Position numbers and translations under genes: made by a program
NCBI RefSeq assembly: GCF_947492555.1
Contig: NZ_CANLNE010000001.1
Coordinates: 558,001 to 622,000, forward strand
Length of the DNA: 64,000 nucleotides
Source of the DNA: an uncultured Roseobacter sp.
GTDB taxonomy: Bacteria; Pseudomonadota; Alphaproteobacteria; Rhodobacterales; Rhodobacteraceae
Direction: 5' to 3'
Shown: positions 9,402 through 23,560 of the stretch, one piece after another
How positions within the stretch are numbered: the stretch's first letter is position 1
Layout: every line of letters starts with the position of its first letter
The notes under the pieces: generated by a model
Told to the model about the DNA's origin: nothing
Database searches by the model: none
The model's input: only the letters and a program-made list of their open reading frames with translations

Positions 9402-9491
9402 TGGCGGAGGAGGTGGGATTCGAACCCACGGTACGCTTTCACGCACGCCGGTTTTCAAGACCGGTGCATTCGACCACTCTGCCACTCCTCC
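9402..9491 (-). tRNA. tRNA-Ser (anticodon UGA)
   Basis: The minus strand reads a 90-base class II tRNA. The acceptor stem GGAGGAG pairs with CTCCTCC, followed by discriminator G and an encoded CCA. The anticodon arm CGGTCTTGAAAACCGG presents TGA. A long variable arm (GCGTGCGTGAAAGCGTAC region) and a T-arm GGGTTCGAATCCC follow. The long variable arm and UGA anticodon identify serine. The next gene to the right is transcribed in the opposite direction. Confidence 0.97.
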
Positions 9492-17520: not shown

Positions 17521-18975
17521 TTACCCATGGTGCGCAGCGACCGTCTTTAACGTTGAAAACCCGTAGAGCGCCTCGAACCCCTTCTCGCGCCCGTGTCCGG
17601 ACAACCCGGTGCCGCCGAAGGGCAGTTCGACGCCGCCGCCTGCCCCGTAGTTGTTCAGGAATACCTGTCCTGCCCGCAACGCCTTGGCCAGCCGCATTTG
17701 CCGCGCGCCTTCCCGCGTCCAGACCGAGGCCACCAACCCGTAGGCGGTGCCATTCGCGATGGACAGAGCCTCTGCCTCATCATCAAATGGGATCACCACC
17801 TGAACCGGGCCAAAAATTTCCTCCTGTGCCAACCGGTGATTCTCTGTGGCTCCTGCAAACAGCGTCGGTTGCACATAGGCCCCGTTTTCGGGCAGGCCAT
17901 CTGGCAAGATTGCGGCTCCCGCAATCTCCAGATCAGACCCCTGCGCCAGGTACCCCTCGACGATATCTTTCTGCCGGGCAGAGATGAGTGGCCCCACGTC
18001 CAGATCGTGCAGCGCAGGCCCCACCTGCAAGCCGCAATAACGGTCCGCCATCCGGCTCACCACCTGATCATAAACGCCACGCTGGACCAGGATACGCGAC
18101 GCCGCAGAGCAGGTCTGCCCGGCATTCTGGATGCCCGCGTTGACCAGAAAGGGCAGTGCCGCATCGATATCCGCATCCTCGAACACCAGTTGCGGGGATT
18201 TTCCACCAAGCTCCAGCGTCACCGGCACCACGTTCTTACCCGCCGCCTGCTGTACCGACCTGCCAACGCCCACAGAGCCCGTGAAGGAGATATGATGCAC
18301 GTCCGGATGCGCCGCCAGCGCCGCCCCGGCCTCTGCCCCCAACCCCGGCACCACATTCAGAGCGCCGTCGGGCAGACCGGCCTGCCGCGCCAGCTCAGCA
18401 AAGGCCAGCGCGGTCAGACAGGCCTCTTCCGCGGGTTTCAACACCGCCGCATTGCCCATGGCCAAGGCCGCGCCCACCGACCGTCCGATGATCTGCATCG
18501 GATAATTCCATGGCACGATATGGCCTGTCACCCCGTGGGGCTGGCGCAGGGTGTAGACCGTGTAGCCATCCATGTAAGGGATCGTGCTGCCATGCACCTT
18601 GTCGGCGGCACCGGCGTAAAACTCCATGTAACGCGCCAGGGCAATGACATCCGCCCGCGCCTGTTTCAAGGGCTTGCCAACGTCACGTGCCTCAAGGGCT
18701 GCCAGCGCTTCCGTCTGATCCAGCACCAGCTGCCCCAGACGCGCCAGCACCCTGCCGCGTTCTACCGCCGTGGATCGCCCCCAGTCCCCGTCCAGCGCCA
18801 TCTGTGCTGCGGCCACGGCGCGATCAATATCCTCCGCCTGCCCCCCTGCGATCTCGCAGAGCGCGTCCCCTGTCGACGGATCGGTCAGCGTGAGCCTCTC
18901 GCCCTTGGCGGCGGCCTGCCACCTGCCAGCAATGAAACACAAAGATGGATCAAGACCCAAGGGTTGTAGTGTCAC
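17521..18975 (-). CDS. Aldehyde dehydrogenase family protein
   Basis: A 484-residue NAD(P)-dependent aldehyde dehydrogenase. It contains the cofactor-binding TGHIVPWNYPMQIIGR segment, FTGSVGVGRSVQQAA, the general-base LELGGKSPQ motif and the catalytic cysteine in NAGQTCSAASR. The C-terminal half has the ENHRLAQEEIFGPV segment. Family members oxidise betaine aldehyde, semialdehydes or aliphatic aldehydes; the true substrate is unknown. A GTG at 18975 is preferred because a GGGAGAG ribosome binding site lies about 3 bases upstream; a longer TTG start at 19035 would add 20 residues without family support. It is divergent from the copper-related pair. Confidence 0.92.
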   Translation of the reverse strand: MTLQPLGLDPSLCFIAGRWQAAAKGERLTLTDPSTGDALCEIAGGQAEDIDRAVAAAQMALDGDWGRSTAVERGRVLARLGQLVLDQTEALAALEARDVGKPLKQARADVIALARYMEFYAGAADKVHGSTIPYMDGYTVYTLRQPHGVTGHIVPWNYPMQIIGRSVGAALAMGNAAVLKPAEEACLTALAFAELARQAGLPDGALNVVPGLGAEAGAALAAHPDVHHISFTGSVGVGRSVQQAAGKNVVPVTLELGGKSPQLVFEDADIDAALPFLVNAGIQNAGQTCSAASRILVQRGVYDQVVSRMADRYCGLQVGPALHDLDVGPLISARQKDIVEGYLAQGSDLEIAGAAILPDGLPENGAYVQPTLFAGATENHRLAQEEIFGPVQVVIPFDDEAEALSIANGTAYGLVASVWTREGARQMRLAKALRAGQVFLNNYGAGGGVELPFGGTGLSGHGREKGFEALYGFSTLKTVAAHHG

Positions 18976-19119
18976 GCTCTCTCTCCCTGTTCGTGCGTCT
19001 GCATTGATCAGCGCATCGCAGGCGTCGCGGGTCAAGTCGTCTCATTGCGCCTTGCGACAGAGCTACGCAGCCGCGTATCCGGTCTGGACCCGCCTCAGCC
19101 AAGCCCCTAAGACAGGATC

Positions 19120-19540: not shown

Positions 19541-20026
19541 ATGAAAACCCTGACGTTCGCGGCGACCGCCGCCTTGCTTTCCTTCTCGACCGCCAGTTTC
19601 GCCCATGAATACAAATTGGGCGACCTGGTGATCGACCATCCGATGGCCTTCAACACTGCGGCCACGGCCCAAACAGGTGGCGGCTACCTGACCATCACCA
19701 ATACCGGCGACAGCGCCGACCGCCTTGTGGGCGTGCGCGCCGACTTTCCCAAGGTCGAATTGCATACCACGGAAGAAAAAGATGGTGTTGCCCGCATGAT
19801 GCATGTCGAAGGCATCGACGTTCCCCCCGGTGAAACCGTCCTGCTGCAGCCCGGTGGGTTCCATGTGATGTTCATGGGGCTGGGCGGCGATCCTTTCGAG
19901 GTGGGCGAAAAAATTCCAGCCACGCTGATTTTTGAAGAGGCCGGCGAGGTTGAGGTCATGTTCAGCATCGAAGAACGCGGCGCCGCCGACAAAGTCGACC
20001 ATTCAGACCACAAAATGTCGCACTGA
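19541..20026 (+). CDS. Copper chaperone PCu(A)C
   Basis: A 161-residue periplasmic protein with a signal peptide ending near ASFAH. The mature domain is the cupredoxin-like PCu(A)C fold: DHPMAFNTAATAQTGGGYLTI, then the HTTEEKDGVARMMHVEGIDVPPGETVLLQPGGFHVMFMGL core. The Cu(I) ligands of the H(M)X10MX21HXM motif are visible as His, Met, His and Met in that core, and the C-terminus has a His/Asp/Met-rich tail (DHSDHKMSH). It delivers Cu(I) to the CuA or CuB site of cytochrome oxidase, consistent with ctaD elsewhere in the window. Confidence 0.93.
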   Translation: MKTLTFAATAALLSFSTASFAHEYKLGDLVIDHPMAFNTAATAQTGGGYLTITNTGDSADRLVGVRADFPKVELHTTEEKDGVARMMHVEGIDVPPGETVLLQPGGFHVMFMGLGGDPFEVGEKIPATLIFEEAGEVEVMFSIEERGAADKVDHSDHKMSH

Positions 20027-20108: not shown

Positions 20109-23100
20109 TCAGAGATCAATTTCGAGGACGCCGCCCGGTTTAGCCGCGCGGCTCTGGCAGAGGATCACTGCCTCCTCGCGCTGTTTCTTTGACAGAACGA
20201 AATCGCGATGCTCGACCTCGCCCGAGATCAGCCCGCATCTACACACCCCGCAAATCCCGTCCGAGCATTTGACGTCGATGGGAATGCCATTCTCGGTCAG
20301 TACATCGGTGGCGGATTTATCGGCAGGCACCTGCAATTCTCGTCCGCTGCGCGCCAGCCGTAGCGTGAAATCGTGATTTTCGTATTCCGGCAGTTCGGGC
20401 ACAGAAAAGTACTCCACGTGGCACGCGTCCTCCGCGATGCCCTGCCGCGCAGCAGCCTCCATGACGCTGGACATATAGATCTCGGGCCCGCAGGCGTAGA
20501 CATGTGTGCCCGCCCCCTGCCCGGCAAGCACCGCGTCCAGATCGGCGCGGCTGCCCGCGTCCGAGATATGCACGGAGGCATTCTCGGCCCAGGGCACGCG
20601 CTGCAGCGCATCCATGAAGGCCGCCGAGGCTTGCGTGGATGCGGAATAGTGCAGCTCGAAATCAAGACCCCGGGCATGGCATTCATGGGCAAATGCCATC
20701 ATCGGGGTTACCCCGATCCCACCGCCCATCAGCATGTGTTTTGTCGCCTCTTCGGCCAGCGGGAAGTGGTTGATCGGCTTTGAGATAAACACCTTGCGGC
20801 CTTTGGCGAAAATCTTGTGCATCAGTTTGGAACCACCGCGCCCCGCGTCTTCACGCAGCACCGCAACCTTGTAGCATGTGCGATCCGCCGGGTCCCCGCA
20901 GAGCGAAAACTGGCGGAAGAATTCTGGCGCGACCACGATGTCGATATGCGCGCCAGCCTGCCATTCAGGTAGCAGACCACCGTCAAGAGCGTGCAGCTCA
21001 TAAAGGGAGACGTCGTCGTTCAGCGGGGTGACCTTCGCGATCTCAACCCGAACCACCGGCGCATCCCCATCGCCCAGATAGGTATGCGCCAACCCTTGTG
21101 TCTCACCCCGCTCCAGACGCGCCTGATACTCCTCGGCGGTGATCAGCGCCTGATATGCCTCGATCCCCTTTTCGCGATCCATGGGGAAGGGAAAGGGATG
21201 CGGTGGCGGCGCAAGATTTGCCGGATAAACCGCAAGGGTCTGATCCTCATAGTCAAGCTTCAGATCGGTTTGAAGTTCCCGGTAGTTCTTGGGTTCTTCC
21301 ACGGGATCGAAACCGCCCCGGTCATTGACCTTCAAGTCCCACCACCAGCGCTTTTGCGGGTTGATCCGACCGTTGCCGACCAGATCATCCGCCCGGGCCA
21401 ATACCCCGGCCATCGCGGGCACATTCATCGCGATCCAGCGCAGAGGCTTTTCGTGCTGCAACCCTTCCACGTTCCAGGGGCAGGTCTTCATGCAGCGTCC
21501 GCACATCGCCCCGCCCTTTTGCGTCAGCCGGTAGGTCAGGCATTTCTGGCTGTCCGACTTCCAGATTTCATAGCCGTTGAACATCAGCTTGGGCCCGGCG
21601 GTGATGGCCCCTGACGGGCATTCGCGGGCGCATTTGTTGCAGGCTTCACAGAACGCCTGCATGCCGAAATCGATAGGCTTGTCATGGGTGAGCGGCATGT
21701 TGGTGGTGATGCATCCCGACTTCAGGCGAGGCCCGAGGAATGGGTTCACGATGACCTCACCGATGCGGCTGACCTCCCCCAACCCGGCCAGCAGCAGCAA
21801 TGGCGGCTGCAGCACCTCGCCATCGAGGTTGGTATGGACGCGCGCCTCGTAGCCCAGATTGCGGATCTGCTTGCCGATCACCCCGCCGAGCAGCGAGAAA
21901 CGCAGATAGGCGCGCATGGATTGCGTGACCGCGATCCAGTCATCCCCCGAGGAGCCTTCCGTGGTTTCAAAGCCCTGGTCGATGATCAGGCTGATGGCGT
22001 TGTCGTGGGTGGGTGTGATCGGCTCCCCCACGGCGTCATGCGAGTACCAAGCCCAGTCCGGACAGCGCGATATGCCCACCGCGTCCGCGCCCATGAAGTA
22101 GGCCGCGGCCTTGATCCCCTCCGCGTTGCGGGCTGCATCCTCTGCCTGTGGCGCAACCGTCTCTGCCACCGGCCCTTGCTGCAACAGTAAAAGCGCGCCC
22201 GAAGGCCTCCGGATCGCATTGCTGATCGGCGCCTTCTGCGCAAAATAGCCACCGGTCGTCGCCTGCTGATTGGCCTTGCCCATGTCGCCGAACTGAGCAC
22301 GCGCGAACATGTCCGTGCGTTTGGGCACCCGCGCCACACGCGCTTCATCGATGTAGGTTGTGGGGGTATCCACCCGCTTGAGCGTCTCGAAAGGATGTGG
22401 TCCATCGGCGTAGCGCCGTTTGGCGTAAGGATCCAGCGTGCGGGCGCTTTTCTGCGATCCCTTGCCCAGCTTCCAGGCCAGCCCGCGTGTCAGCGACCGG
22501 GGTTGTTCTGCCAGAGGCCGCAGGGGTTTGTCGGGTGCCATGGCAAAATCCGTGGTCACCGCCGATACCTGAAAGCGGTCTTTCACAAAGGGGTTCACCA
22601 GCTGCCCGTCTTCGACGCTCGCGAGGCCCGCACCGACGGCCAATTTGTTAAGATCAACATCCGTGGACGTGGTCGTATGCGCCTTTGCGTCAAACCCAAG
22701 AACCCGCAAATACCCGGCGATGATGACAGCCGTCTCTGCCGCCCGGAGGCTGGCGCGCTGTGGATGGGCCTCAGCAATCCAGTCATATCCGGGTTCGTCC
22801 TGGGCGGGATCGCGGCTGTAGTCGTAGAGAAACACAATCGTATGCGTATGGGCGTCGATGGTGCGCGGCGGCGCGGTCATGCTGTCCCGCAGATCTGCCA
22901 TGATCGTGTCGATCCCGGCAGCCAGCGTCTTGGTCTGTTTCGTCTTGAGGTCTTCGGCAAGGCGGTCGATACCCGGATTGCGCAGAGGGGTCTTCAGAAG
23001 CTGCGTGCGGTCGAACTGTCCGACGCCAACCATCGGCGCATCCTGAAAGTACCCAAAGGATTTCACATGGCGCGCTCGCTCCGCCGGATCGGTTGGGCAG

Positions 23101-23351
23101 GTCGATGTCTCGCGGTTGATCAACCCGTCGCGGATCGCGTCGAGCATGGCCTGATATTCGGCCATCGCATTGACCAGCGAGGCGGGCATGTCGCCGCGAT
23201 CAAAGGACACCGGCTGCAGGGGCGGAACATTCGTCAGATCTGGTGTGGTGTCGATCCTTGCCAGACGCTCCAACGGAAAGGGACCCAGATGAAATGGCCG
23301 ATTTCGGGTCGAGAATATTCGAGTAGTCAAGACGTTTCCCTTTGCGCGCAA
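20109..23351 (-). CDS. Self-sufficient reductive dehalogenase (RdhA fused to VanB-like reductase)
   Basis: A 1080-residue fusion. Residues 1 to about 710 form a soluble corrinoid-dependent reductive dehalogenase unit with two ferredoxin-type [4Fe-4S] sites, C568-C571-C574-C578 and C604-C617-C620-C624. Residues about 760-1000 are an FMN/NAD(P)H reductase of the phthalate dioxygenase reductase/VanB type (RQFSLCGDP, GGGIGVTPMM at 876-885, CGPEIYM at 954-960). The C-terminus is a plant-type [2Fe-2S] ferredoxin with C1029, C1034, C1037 and C1065. No twin-arginine signal or RdhB partner is present, so it should be cytosolic and respiration-independent, like Nitratireductor NpRdhA and Comamonas BhbA. 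Candidate catalytic residues are Tyr436, Lys494 and Arg542, by position only. A TTG at 23330 has a good AAAGGG site and may be the true start. The organohalide substrate is unknown. Confidence 0.88.
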   Translation of the reverse strand: MRAKGNVLTTRIFSTRNRPFHLGPFPLERLARIDTTPDLTNVPPLQPVSFDRGDMPASLVNAMAEYQAMLDAIRDGLINRETSTCPTDPAERARHVKSFGYFQDAPMVGVGQFDRTQLLKTPLRNPGIDRLAEDLKTKQTKTLAAGIDTIMADLRDSMTAPPRTIDAHTHTIVFLYDYSRDPAQDEPGYDWIAEAHPQRASLRAAETAVIIAGYLRVLGFDAKAHTTTSTDVDLNKLAVGAGLASVEDGQLVNPFVKDRFQVSAVTTDFAMAPDKPLRPLAEQPRSLTRGLAWKLGKGSQKSARTLDPYAKRRYADGPHPFETLKRVDTPTTYIDEARVARVPKRTDMFARAQFGDMGKANQQATTGGYFAQKAPISNAIRRPSGALLLLQQGPVAETVAPQAEDAARNAEGIKAAAYFMGADAVGISRCPDWAWYSHDAVGEPITPTHDNAISLIIDQGFETTEGSSGDDWIAVTQSMRAYLRFSLLGGVIGKQIRNLGYEARVHTNLDGEVLQPPLLLLAGLGEVSRIGEVIVNPFLGPRLKSGCITTNMPLTHDKPIDFGMQAFCEACNKCARECPSGAITAGPKLMFNGYEIWKSDSQKCLTYRLTQKGGAMCGRCMKTCPWNVEGLQHEKPLRWIAMNVPAMAGVLARADDLVGNGRINPQKRWWWDLKVNDRGGFDPVEEPKNYRELQTDLKLDYEDQTLAVYPANLAPPPHPFPFPMDREKGIEAYQALITAEEYQARLERGETQGLAHTYLGDGDAPVVRVEIAKVTPLNDDVSLYELHALDGGLLPEWQAGAHIDIVVAPEFFRQFSLCGDPADRTCYKVAVLREDAGRGGSKLMHKIFAKGRKVFISKPINHFPLAEEATKHMLMGGGIGVTPMMAFAHECHARGLDFELHYSASTQASAAFMDALQRVPWAENASVHISDAGSRADLDAVLAGQGAGTHVYACGPEIYMSSVMEAAARQGIAEDACHVEYFSVPELPEYENHDFTLRLARSGRELQVPADKSATDVLTENGIPIDVKCSDGICGVCRCGLISGEVEHRDFVLSKKQREEAVILCQSRAAKPGGVLEIDL

Positions 23352-23474: not shown

Positions 23475-23560
23475 TGGTGCGGATGAGAAGACTCGAACTT
23501 CCACGGGTGTTACCCCACAGCGACCTCAACGCTGCGCGTCTACCATTCCGCCACATCCGC
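23475..23560 (-). tRNA. tRNA-Leu (anticodon GAG)
   Basis: The minus strand reads an 86-base class II tRNA. The acceptor stem GCGGATG pairs with CATCCGC, followed by discriminator A and encoded CCA. The D-arm TGGCGGAATGGTAGACGCG is typical of leucine tRNA. The anticodon arm CAGCGTTGAGGTCGCTG presents GAG, a long variable arm follows, and the T-arm is AGTTCGAGTCT. It lies just upstream of the dehalogenase gene on the same strand. Confidence 0.96.

Follow-up and report, generated by a model that had tools for sequence, protein, structure and literature searches.

Can a single gene supply an aerobic marine bacterium with everything needed to remove halogen from a phenolic compound and, if so, what purpose would it serve? 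This question is raised by a gene, rdhA, in a 64,000-nucleotide stretch of DNA from an uncultured Roseobacter sp. (henceforth referred to as the window; contig C1, positions 558001-622000, of a 4.44-Mb genome). A sequence-only reading of the window had proposed that rdhA specifies a reductive dehalogenase that works independently of respiration, and the open frame lies exactly where that reading had placed it (Table 1). Enzymes of this class bring a B12 chemistry typical of anaerobes into aerobic cells, where it is coupled to ordinary NAD(P)H. Our analysis of sequence, predicted structure and characterised homologs makes it very probable (roughly 0.86) that the product of rdhA is a catabolic reductive dehalogenase, cytosolic and self-sufficient, which would debrominate or deiodinate phenolic acids. 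The protein is an additional member of the published BhbA/JtRdhA class and represents no new mechanism.

A dehalogenase core and a reductase module share one chain

The rdhA frame contains 1080 codons and its homologs can be aligned across almost the entire length (residues are numbered on this frame; subtracting 7 gives the numbering of the 1073-residue protein proposed below). The protein scored 210.1 bits against the reductive dehalogenase family TIGR02486 (cut-off 160.35), and 27.9 bits against the epoxyqueuosine reductase (QueG) family TIGR00276, far below the cut-off of 200. Its nearest proteins of solved structure are the entries for NpRdhA of Nitratireductor pacificus (4ras, 6zxu, 6zxx, 6zy0 and 6zy1), which match residues 5-114 and 167-747 with an E value of 1.3e-164; in the phmmer alignment 256 of 574 aligned residues are identical overall, and 173 of 353 from residue 395 onwards. 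PceA is also matched by the RdhA core (9.1e-31). Residues 767-1076 match P450-fused reductases and then phthalate dioxygenase reductase (PDOR), with E values of 1.3e-62 (6kbh) and 1.3e-52 (2pia). The same flavin, NAD(P)H and [2Fe-2S] module is present in 2pia, 6kbh and 6laa, but is joined in those systems to a P450 or serves a separate oxygenase, whereas here it is joined to a dehalogenase core. Two [4Fe-4S] motifs with eight cysteines follow the corrinoid domain, and Pfam places 4Fe-4S families at residues 567-628 and Fer2 in the C-terminal domain. We also predicted the fold with AlphaFold2 from an alignment of the window protein with its counterparts at 54 of 80 loci, these being the best 80 of at least 589 relatives (81 loci including the window). 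The first 14 Foldseek matches of the resulting model (pLDDT 78.5, pTM 0.76) in the PDB are all NpRdhA chains (TM scores of 0.89-0.91 by target length, about 0.90 for the fold match as a whole; best E value 7.1e-64), followed by CYP116-type P450s and PDOR. Overall, family, sequence and fold searches place the reductase module in the same chain as the RdhA core, and so bear out the earlier proposal of a corrinoid/two-[4Fe-4S] unit, a flavin mononucleotide (FMN)/NAD(P)H reductase and a C-terminal [2Fe-2S] domain. A Rhodobacterales-like origin had also been proposed, in keeping with which the nearest relatives are from Roseobacter sp.

By its sequence matches, the N-terminal part of the protein holds a degenerate second RdhA copy, a point absent from the sequence-only reading. 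In a scan of the genome TIGR02486 matched the gene twice, at 162.5 bits and, in contig coordinates (G000:C1:580521-581093), at 44.9 bits; in an internal comparison the N-terminal half matched the catalytic half at 32% over ~110 amino acids (E value 3.5e-13). This copy is without the [4Fe-4S] cysteines, and a vestigial cobalamin-domain copy is known from catabolic RdhAs (PMC10463259; this paper, PMC7565698 and PMC13101508 are cited for the portions available to us). The residues within this region that do not align with NpRdhA are possibly the fusion-specific insert described for JtRdhA, a likeness drawn from the mention of such an insert and not from its coordinates (PMC10463259). Hydropathy and a search for arginine pairs, the two checks applied, revealed no export signal, TAT signal or membrane helix, in agreement with the earlier proposal: the maximum 19-residue Kyte-Doolittle mean is 1.44, values near the N-terminus are <=0.17, and the first RR pair does not occur before residue 312. 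The frame begins with a TTG at 23351. However, since 77 of 79 relatives (the truncated L062 being excluded) have a start codon 3-5 codons ahead of a conserved F-S/T, the distance being 5 codons in 47 of them, the true start is probably the TTG at residue 8 (23330), which lies 5 codons ahead of this motif and would yield a 1073-residue protein; AAGGGA is located upstream of it.

Table 1. Position of rdhA, its parts and its neighbours in the window.
Feature	Position	Strand	Basis or remark
rdhA-PDOR fusion gene, putative self-sufficient catabolic reductive dehalogenase	20109..23351	-	1080-aa frame; probable start TTG 23330, giving 1073 aa
Vestigial N-terminal RdhA/cobalamin-domain copy, residues ~87-277	22521..23093	-	Second TIGR02486 match
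Stretch unaligned to NpRdhA, residues 115-166	22854..23009	-	~40 aa longer than NpRdhA; alignment gap
Catalytic corrinoid/Fe-S core, residues 395-700	21252..22169	-	TIGR02486, 210.1 bits; NpRdhA alignment
[4Fe-4S] cysteines C568, C571, C574, C578, C604, C617, C620, C624	21480..21650	-	Fer4 families; conserved in 101/101 rows
Tyr482 codon	21906..21908	-	NpRdhA Tyr426, proton donor
Lys544 codon	21720..21722	-	NpRdhA Lys488
Arg608 codon	21528..21530	-	NpRdhA Arg552
Flavin (FMN by homology) and NAD(P)H domains of PDOR type, residues 767-983	20403..21053	-	RQFS at 813, GGIGVTP at 877
C-terminal [2Fe-2S] ferredoxin domain, Fer2 residues 1000-1069; C1029, C1034, C1037, C1065	20145..20354	-	PF00111, 41.2 bits
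tRNA-Leu(gag), directly upstream of rdhA	23475..23560	-	
PCu(A)C copper-chaperone gene, convergent with rdhA	19541..20026	+	PF04314
Conserved block of aldehyde dehydrogenase (ALDH), AEC permease, MBL, TatD and holB, with PCu(A)C at its edge			rdhA beside the block in 9/19 genus genomes

The halophenol pocket of NpRdhA is retained

To locate the active site we used the phmmer alignment with NpRdhA, the register of which is fixed by the K488Q entry 6zy0. Residues F291, S422, M423, Y426, K488 and R552 of NpRdhA correspond to F349, S478, M479, Y482, K544 and R608 of the window protein, a match at each of the six pocket positions that have been published. The sequence-only reading had named Tyr436, Lys494 and Arg542 as catalytic; these residues exist but are different ones (Arg542 is equivalent to Arg486 of NpRdhA), and the correct set is Y482, K544 and R608. 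The six pocket residues, the eight [4Fe-4S] cysteines and the four [2Fe-2S] cysteines are invariant in 101 of 101 alignment rows, BhbA included. The rows (95 of them distinct) derive from 103 extracted proteins after the interrupted L041 and the truncated L062 had been dropped, and since they were selected by similarity, such invariance is what a working family is expected to display and is not independent proof. Neither the corrinoid pocket nor the catalytic residues have been lost, and the predicted structure matches NpRdhA. Domain anatomy, residue identities and predicted fold are direct results for this protein, as is the purifying selection described below. Two further positions of NpRdhA, F290 and A419, are replaced by M348 (methionine in 95 of 101 rows) and V475 (valine in 99 of 101 rows).

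Proposed reaction and comparison with characterised enzymes

By analogy with characterised homologs, from which we take the cofactors, the electron path, the roles of the tyrosine, lysine and arginine and the preference for bromine and iodine, the protein most likely carries out the NAD(P)H-driven removal of ortho bromine or iodine from phenolic acids and so feeds aromatic catabolism. The FMN of the C-terminal PDOR module would accept a hydride from NAD(P)H and pass electrons on one at a time, first to the [2Fe-2S] domain and then through both [4Fe-4S] clusters, until they reach base-off cobalamin. The ortho halogen of the substrate would be placed against the cobalt with the phenol hydroxyl held by Ser478, Lys544 and Arg608, and Tyr482 would supply a proton as bromide or iodide is released. 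The electron order is that of the sequence-only reading, and we retain it as an inference supported by JtRdhA, an enzyme of the same layout whose activity has been demonstrated (PMC10463259). The ortho halogen in NpRdhA touches the cobalt, S422, K488 and R552 hold the phenol hydroxyl, and Y426 is positioned as the proton donor; the K488Q and R552L variants of NpRdhA lost activity (PMC7565698).

The closest published parallel is JtRdhA of Jhaorihella thermophila, a marine host according to the authors, which has the same domain order (duplicated cobalamin domain, two [4Fe-4S] clusters and PDOR fusion), is also without a TAT signal and has the same six active-site residues (PMC10463259). JtRdhA is a soluble NADPH-driven enzyme with FMN, a [2Fe-2S] cluster, two [4Fe-4S] clusters and cobalamin; it accepts brominated and iodinated phenols but not chlorinated ones and performs best with 3,5-dibromo-4-hydroxybenzoate and 3-bromo-4-hydroxyphenylacetate, the latter of which supported growth of E. 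coli W equipped with the enzyme (PMC10463259). Activity has thus been shown for JtRdhA, whereas for the window protein it is predicted. BhbA, encoded on plasmid pBHB of Comamonas sp. 7D-2 (WP_015585978), is identical to the window protein at 527 of 1062 positions (49.6%) in an alignment of near full length, and all six active-site residues are kept. Unlike the window copy, the BhbA gene is plasmid-borne and lies near protocatechuate 4,5-dioxygenase genes and transposases, and in the RdhA tree BhbA and the copy from Nitratireductor OM-1 occupy a long separate branch. NpRdhA shares the catalytic unit and the vestigial N-terminal copy but is without the fused reductase (PMC10463259). For the window enzyme, likely substrates would be ortho-bromo or ortho-iodo phenolic acids such as 3-bromo- or 3,5-dibromo-4-hydroxybenzoate and 3-bromo-4-hydroxyphenylacetate, together with other halophenols of this kind that occur naturally in the sea. 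Once dehalogenated, the compound would enter ordinary aromatic catabolism via PobA or homogentisate, and the purpose would be the recovery of carbon or detoxification, not respiration.

Genomic setting of the window copy

The gene has a sparse setting in the window. The sequence-only reading had noted the lack of an RdhB, and indeed there is no room for rdhB beside the gene, with 82 bp to the PCu(A)C gene and 144 bp from 23330 to tRNA-Leu (the rest of the genome was not searched for it). It had further noted that no corrinoid or transporter gene is nearby. The corrinoid part of this statement holds but is uninformative, because cobT and cobN, the latter scoring 1051.5 bits together with its neighbours, sit elsewhere in the genome; the transporter part needs the qualification that a permease gene (PF03547, 15215-16144) lies ~4 kb from rdhA, with no sign of a link. 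We also considered the aldehyde dehydrogenase gene (17521-19035) as a linked gene and rejected it: the window and five close relatives with the same block are among the 14 of 81 loci where such genes occur, and ALDH families are large. Further away, the G+C content of the window is 0.53-0.56 over its first ~10 kb against 0.56-0.65 for most of the rest (10001-64000), with a tRNA-Ser (9402-9491) near the boundary, which is possibly the edge of an island.

The genome encodes partners that the proposed reaction could use. Cobalamin synthesis is suggested by cobN and cobT, and routes for 4-hydroxybenzoate and homogentisate are plausible because pobA (690.6 bits) and hmgA (647.3 bits) are present and score over their cut-offs. 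A second RdhA is encoded outside the window at ~108 kb of the same contig (L003:1168-2358, plus strand); this cytosolic 396-residue protein scores 167.7 bits against TIGR02486, is 76% identical to the MED193 open reading frame (ORF) of Ros_A3X954, and is likely an ortholog of that debrominase. Ros_A3X954 is a debrominase from the marine Roseobacter sp. MED193; it belongs to the same superfamily as the window protein and is likewise cytosolic (PMC13101508). We assign it to the short form because the motif positions in the MED193 ORF, which is 395 residues long counted from Met and has CDICTKCADACP at 283 and CAICMRVCP at 337, equal those printed in PMC13101508. MED193 also has a separate long enzyme, a homolog of the window protein (66%). 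Judged by sequence, therefore, the window genome holds both the long and the short kind of RdhA.

Neighbours of rdhA in relatives

Neighbouring ORFs at the 81 loci were called crudely as longest frames, some of them in the wrong frame, and rdhA itself fell into its group at 78 of these loci. The start of pobA, taken as the longest frame, lies 7-9 bp downstream of rdhA in three relatives (L028, L048 and L062); the first two score over the TIGR02360 cut-off and the third is 86% alike. In a wider set of 102 loci, which includes some genomes fetched twice, pobA-like matches, some partial, occur at six, among them the BhbA plasmid and Nitratireductor OM-1, where rdhA is also near ring-cleavage genes. 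Sulfatase-family matches occur at 8 of the 102 loci, six of them 58-100% alike if the query's own locus is counted. A sulfatase-family gene precedes rdhA by 5-10 bp in L017 and L037, where it matches PF00884, and in L039, where it is 84% alike; it is possible that such sulfatases release sulfated halophenols. Two members of the genus, G001 and G012, have rdhA near a fumarylacetoacetase and an FAD-hydroxylase-like block, with hmgA as well in G001. These neighbours point to halogenated 4-hydroxybenzoate and 4-hydroxyphenyl-acetate/pyruvate, and perhaps sulfated bromophenols, as candidate natural substrates. TRAP transporter and regulator genes were also seen at some of the 81 loci, as raw sightings without a background comparison.

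Weighing the alternatives

Several points weigh against our assignment or its catabolic part. The AlphaFold2 model has low confidence around the Fe-S region and the linkers; JtRdhA is likened to the window protein by its published description and not by sequence identity (PMC10463259); the substrate range may differ from that of NpRdhA because the equivalents of F290 and A419 are replaced; and cobalamin synthesis is suggested from the only two genes of the pathway that were checked. The window copy has neither a catabolic neighbour nor a regulator, with PCu(A)C on one side and tRNA-Leu on the other. The commonest neighbour family occurs at no more than 17 of the 81 loci, and the catabolic linkage comes from a minority of relatives, as raw counts without a background rate.

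The alternative that draws most on these points keeps the enzyme class but makes its role defensive, in that it would detoxify halophenols that algae, sponges or competitors produce and would play no part in growth on them. We regard this as a serious contender, though the less probable one: rdhA appears to be a single-gene unit in the window, and it is present in 19 of 19 genus genomes though at no single chromosomal site, but the close spacing of rdhA and pobA in three relatives and the homogentisate-block linkage in two genus members speak for catabolism, as do pobA and hmgA in the genome itself. Much less probable is a protein with the same fold and electron chain whose physiological substrate is not a halophenol but, for example, another ortho-substituted phenol. 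The replacements at M348 and V475 would fit such a substrate, and the substrate role proposed here comes from sequence; in opposition to it, the Ser/Lys/Arg/Tyr set is invariant, in BhbA too, and ortho-halogenated phenols are the substrates of every catabolic RdhA that had been characterised by 2023 (PMC10463259). We rejected a respiratory, energy-conserving dehalogenase as very improbable since, despite the core shared with PceA, the protein has no TAT signal or membrane helix, no space for an adjoining rdhB, a fused reductase of its own and a vestigial N-terminal copy as in catabolic RdhAs. Least probable of all, and likewise rejected, is QueG or another corrinoid protein of tRNA modification, which the sequence-only reading had named as a possible refutation, for its weak similarity falls far short of the cut-off, a separate QueG scoring 444 bits is encoded at C2:653306, of 18 genus loci just one shares the adjoining tRNA gene, and the ortho-halophenol pocket is intact.

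Distribution and evolution in the genus

The reductive dehalogenase assigned here had been described as known from a few marine and soil bacteria, and we reject such rarity. At least 589 of 593 matched stretches were confirmed as relatives at E <= 1e-3, a number that includes copies whose full length is not established. A full-length copy is present in all 19 genus genomes, and at E <= 1e-120 a match was obtained in 123 of 296 genomes of the family, a sample of mostly one genome per genus; most of these matches are near whole length and a few are partial, with G159 matched over the PDOR part only. The enzyme is therefore commoner than had been supposed and is not new in kind. Ten of the 19 genus genomes also have a shorter frame (388-510 residues, one with a stop) that matches the catalytic part only, the second RdhA of the window genome being the one that we examined. 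In G254 (C1:2006484-2009686) the long rdhA is in two frames, one for the vestigial half (query residues 3-395) and one for the catalytic/PDOR part (404-1073), either as a natural split or through a frameshift.

The gene is under strong purifying selection: dN/dS is 0.057 against G011 and 0.073 against G008, with 0.006 and 0.064, respectively, for the catalytic part, and at overall values of 0.06-0.07 a decaying gene is rejected. In an RdhA tree obtained with a quick method, the genus label requires three changes, which the starred branches also force. Group 1 comprises nine genus copies including that of the window; group 2 comprises eight, beside Phaeobacter/Tritonibacter-type copies (support 94, not starred); and group 3 comprises the two copies of G001 and G012, with those of Ahrensia, Sulfitobacter and Jannaschia (support 92, not starred). 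A tree of GlyS, the single marker compared, from the same genomes did not recover the three groups, which required 4, 4 and 2 changes and were each present in 0% of 200 bootstrap trees. However, no more than 2, 1 and 2 changes are forced by those of its branches that are well supported, and the group labels cluster somewhat on it (18 and 21 of 500 shuffles were equally low).

The position of the gene follows a similar division. All nine window-type copies lie 0.05-2 kb from the PCu(A)C/ALDH/AEC permease/MBL/TatD block, and for the other ten this block was not found within the ~5-7 kb viewed. In G001, G004 and G014 the block is present without an adjoining rdhA, which lies elsewhere; in G014 3.6 kb of the rdhA side is visible before the contig ends, and both G004 and G014 have a 4.3-kb gap between ALDH and AEC. 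The simplest reading is that rdhA copies have likely been exchanged in the genus. An old duplication with differential loss is possible, and Ruegeria sp. HKCCD8929 does have two long copies, 77% (L010) and 65% (L059) alike to the window protein and distant from each other in the tree. A tRNA is common to the rdhA stretch of only the window and G011 among 18 genus loci examined. In G001, an integrase frame (phrog_95; L142:836-2458) overlaps a tRNA-Leu(gag) (2365-2450) near the PCu(A)C block that is without rdhA; the integrase may be a serine recombinase, to judge from a weaker DNA-invertase match, and the direction of this tRNA-Leu relative to PCu(A)C is opposite to that in the window. In the genus, tRNA-Leu(gag) possibly serves as an integration site; for the window copy, with the adjacency in one other genome, such an origin is only a lead.

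Implications

JtRdhA already shows the use of this enzyme class against brominated pollutants (PMC10463259), and what the present analysis adds is ecological and evolutionary: the enzyme is present in every genus genome examined, falls into three sequence groups and coexists here with a second debrominase-type gene. Because all 19 genomes have the long enzyme, in three RdhA groups and at no single chromosomal site, we tentatively propose, as an idea still more doubtful than secure, that reductive debromination may be a core, always-kept function of this aerobic marine genus, repeatedly swapped yet never lost. The linkage of some relatives to pobA, sulfatase-family or homogentisate genes suggests, with the same reserve, that the natural diet would be halogenated phenolics, such as breakdown products of halotyrosine and sulfated algal bromophenols, and not pollutants; these neighbour genes name natural substrates that can be tested.

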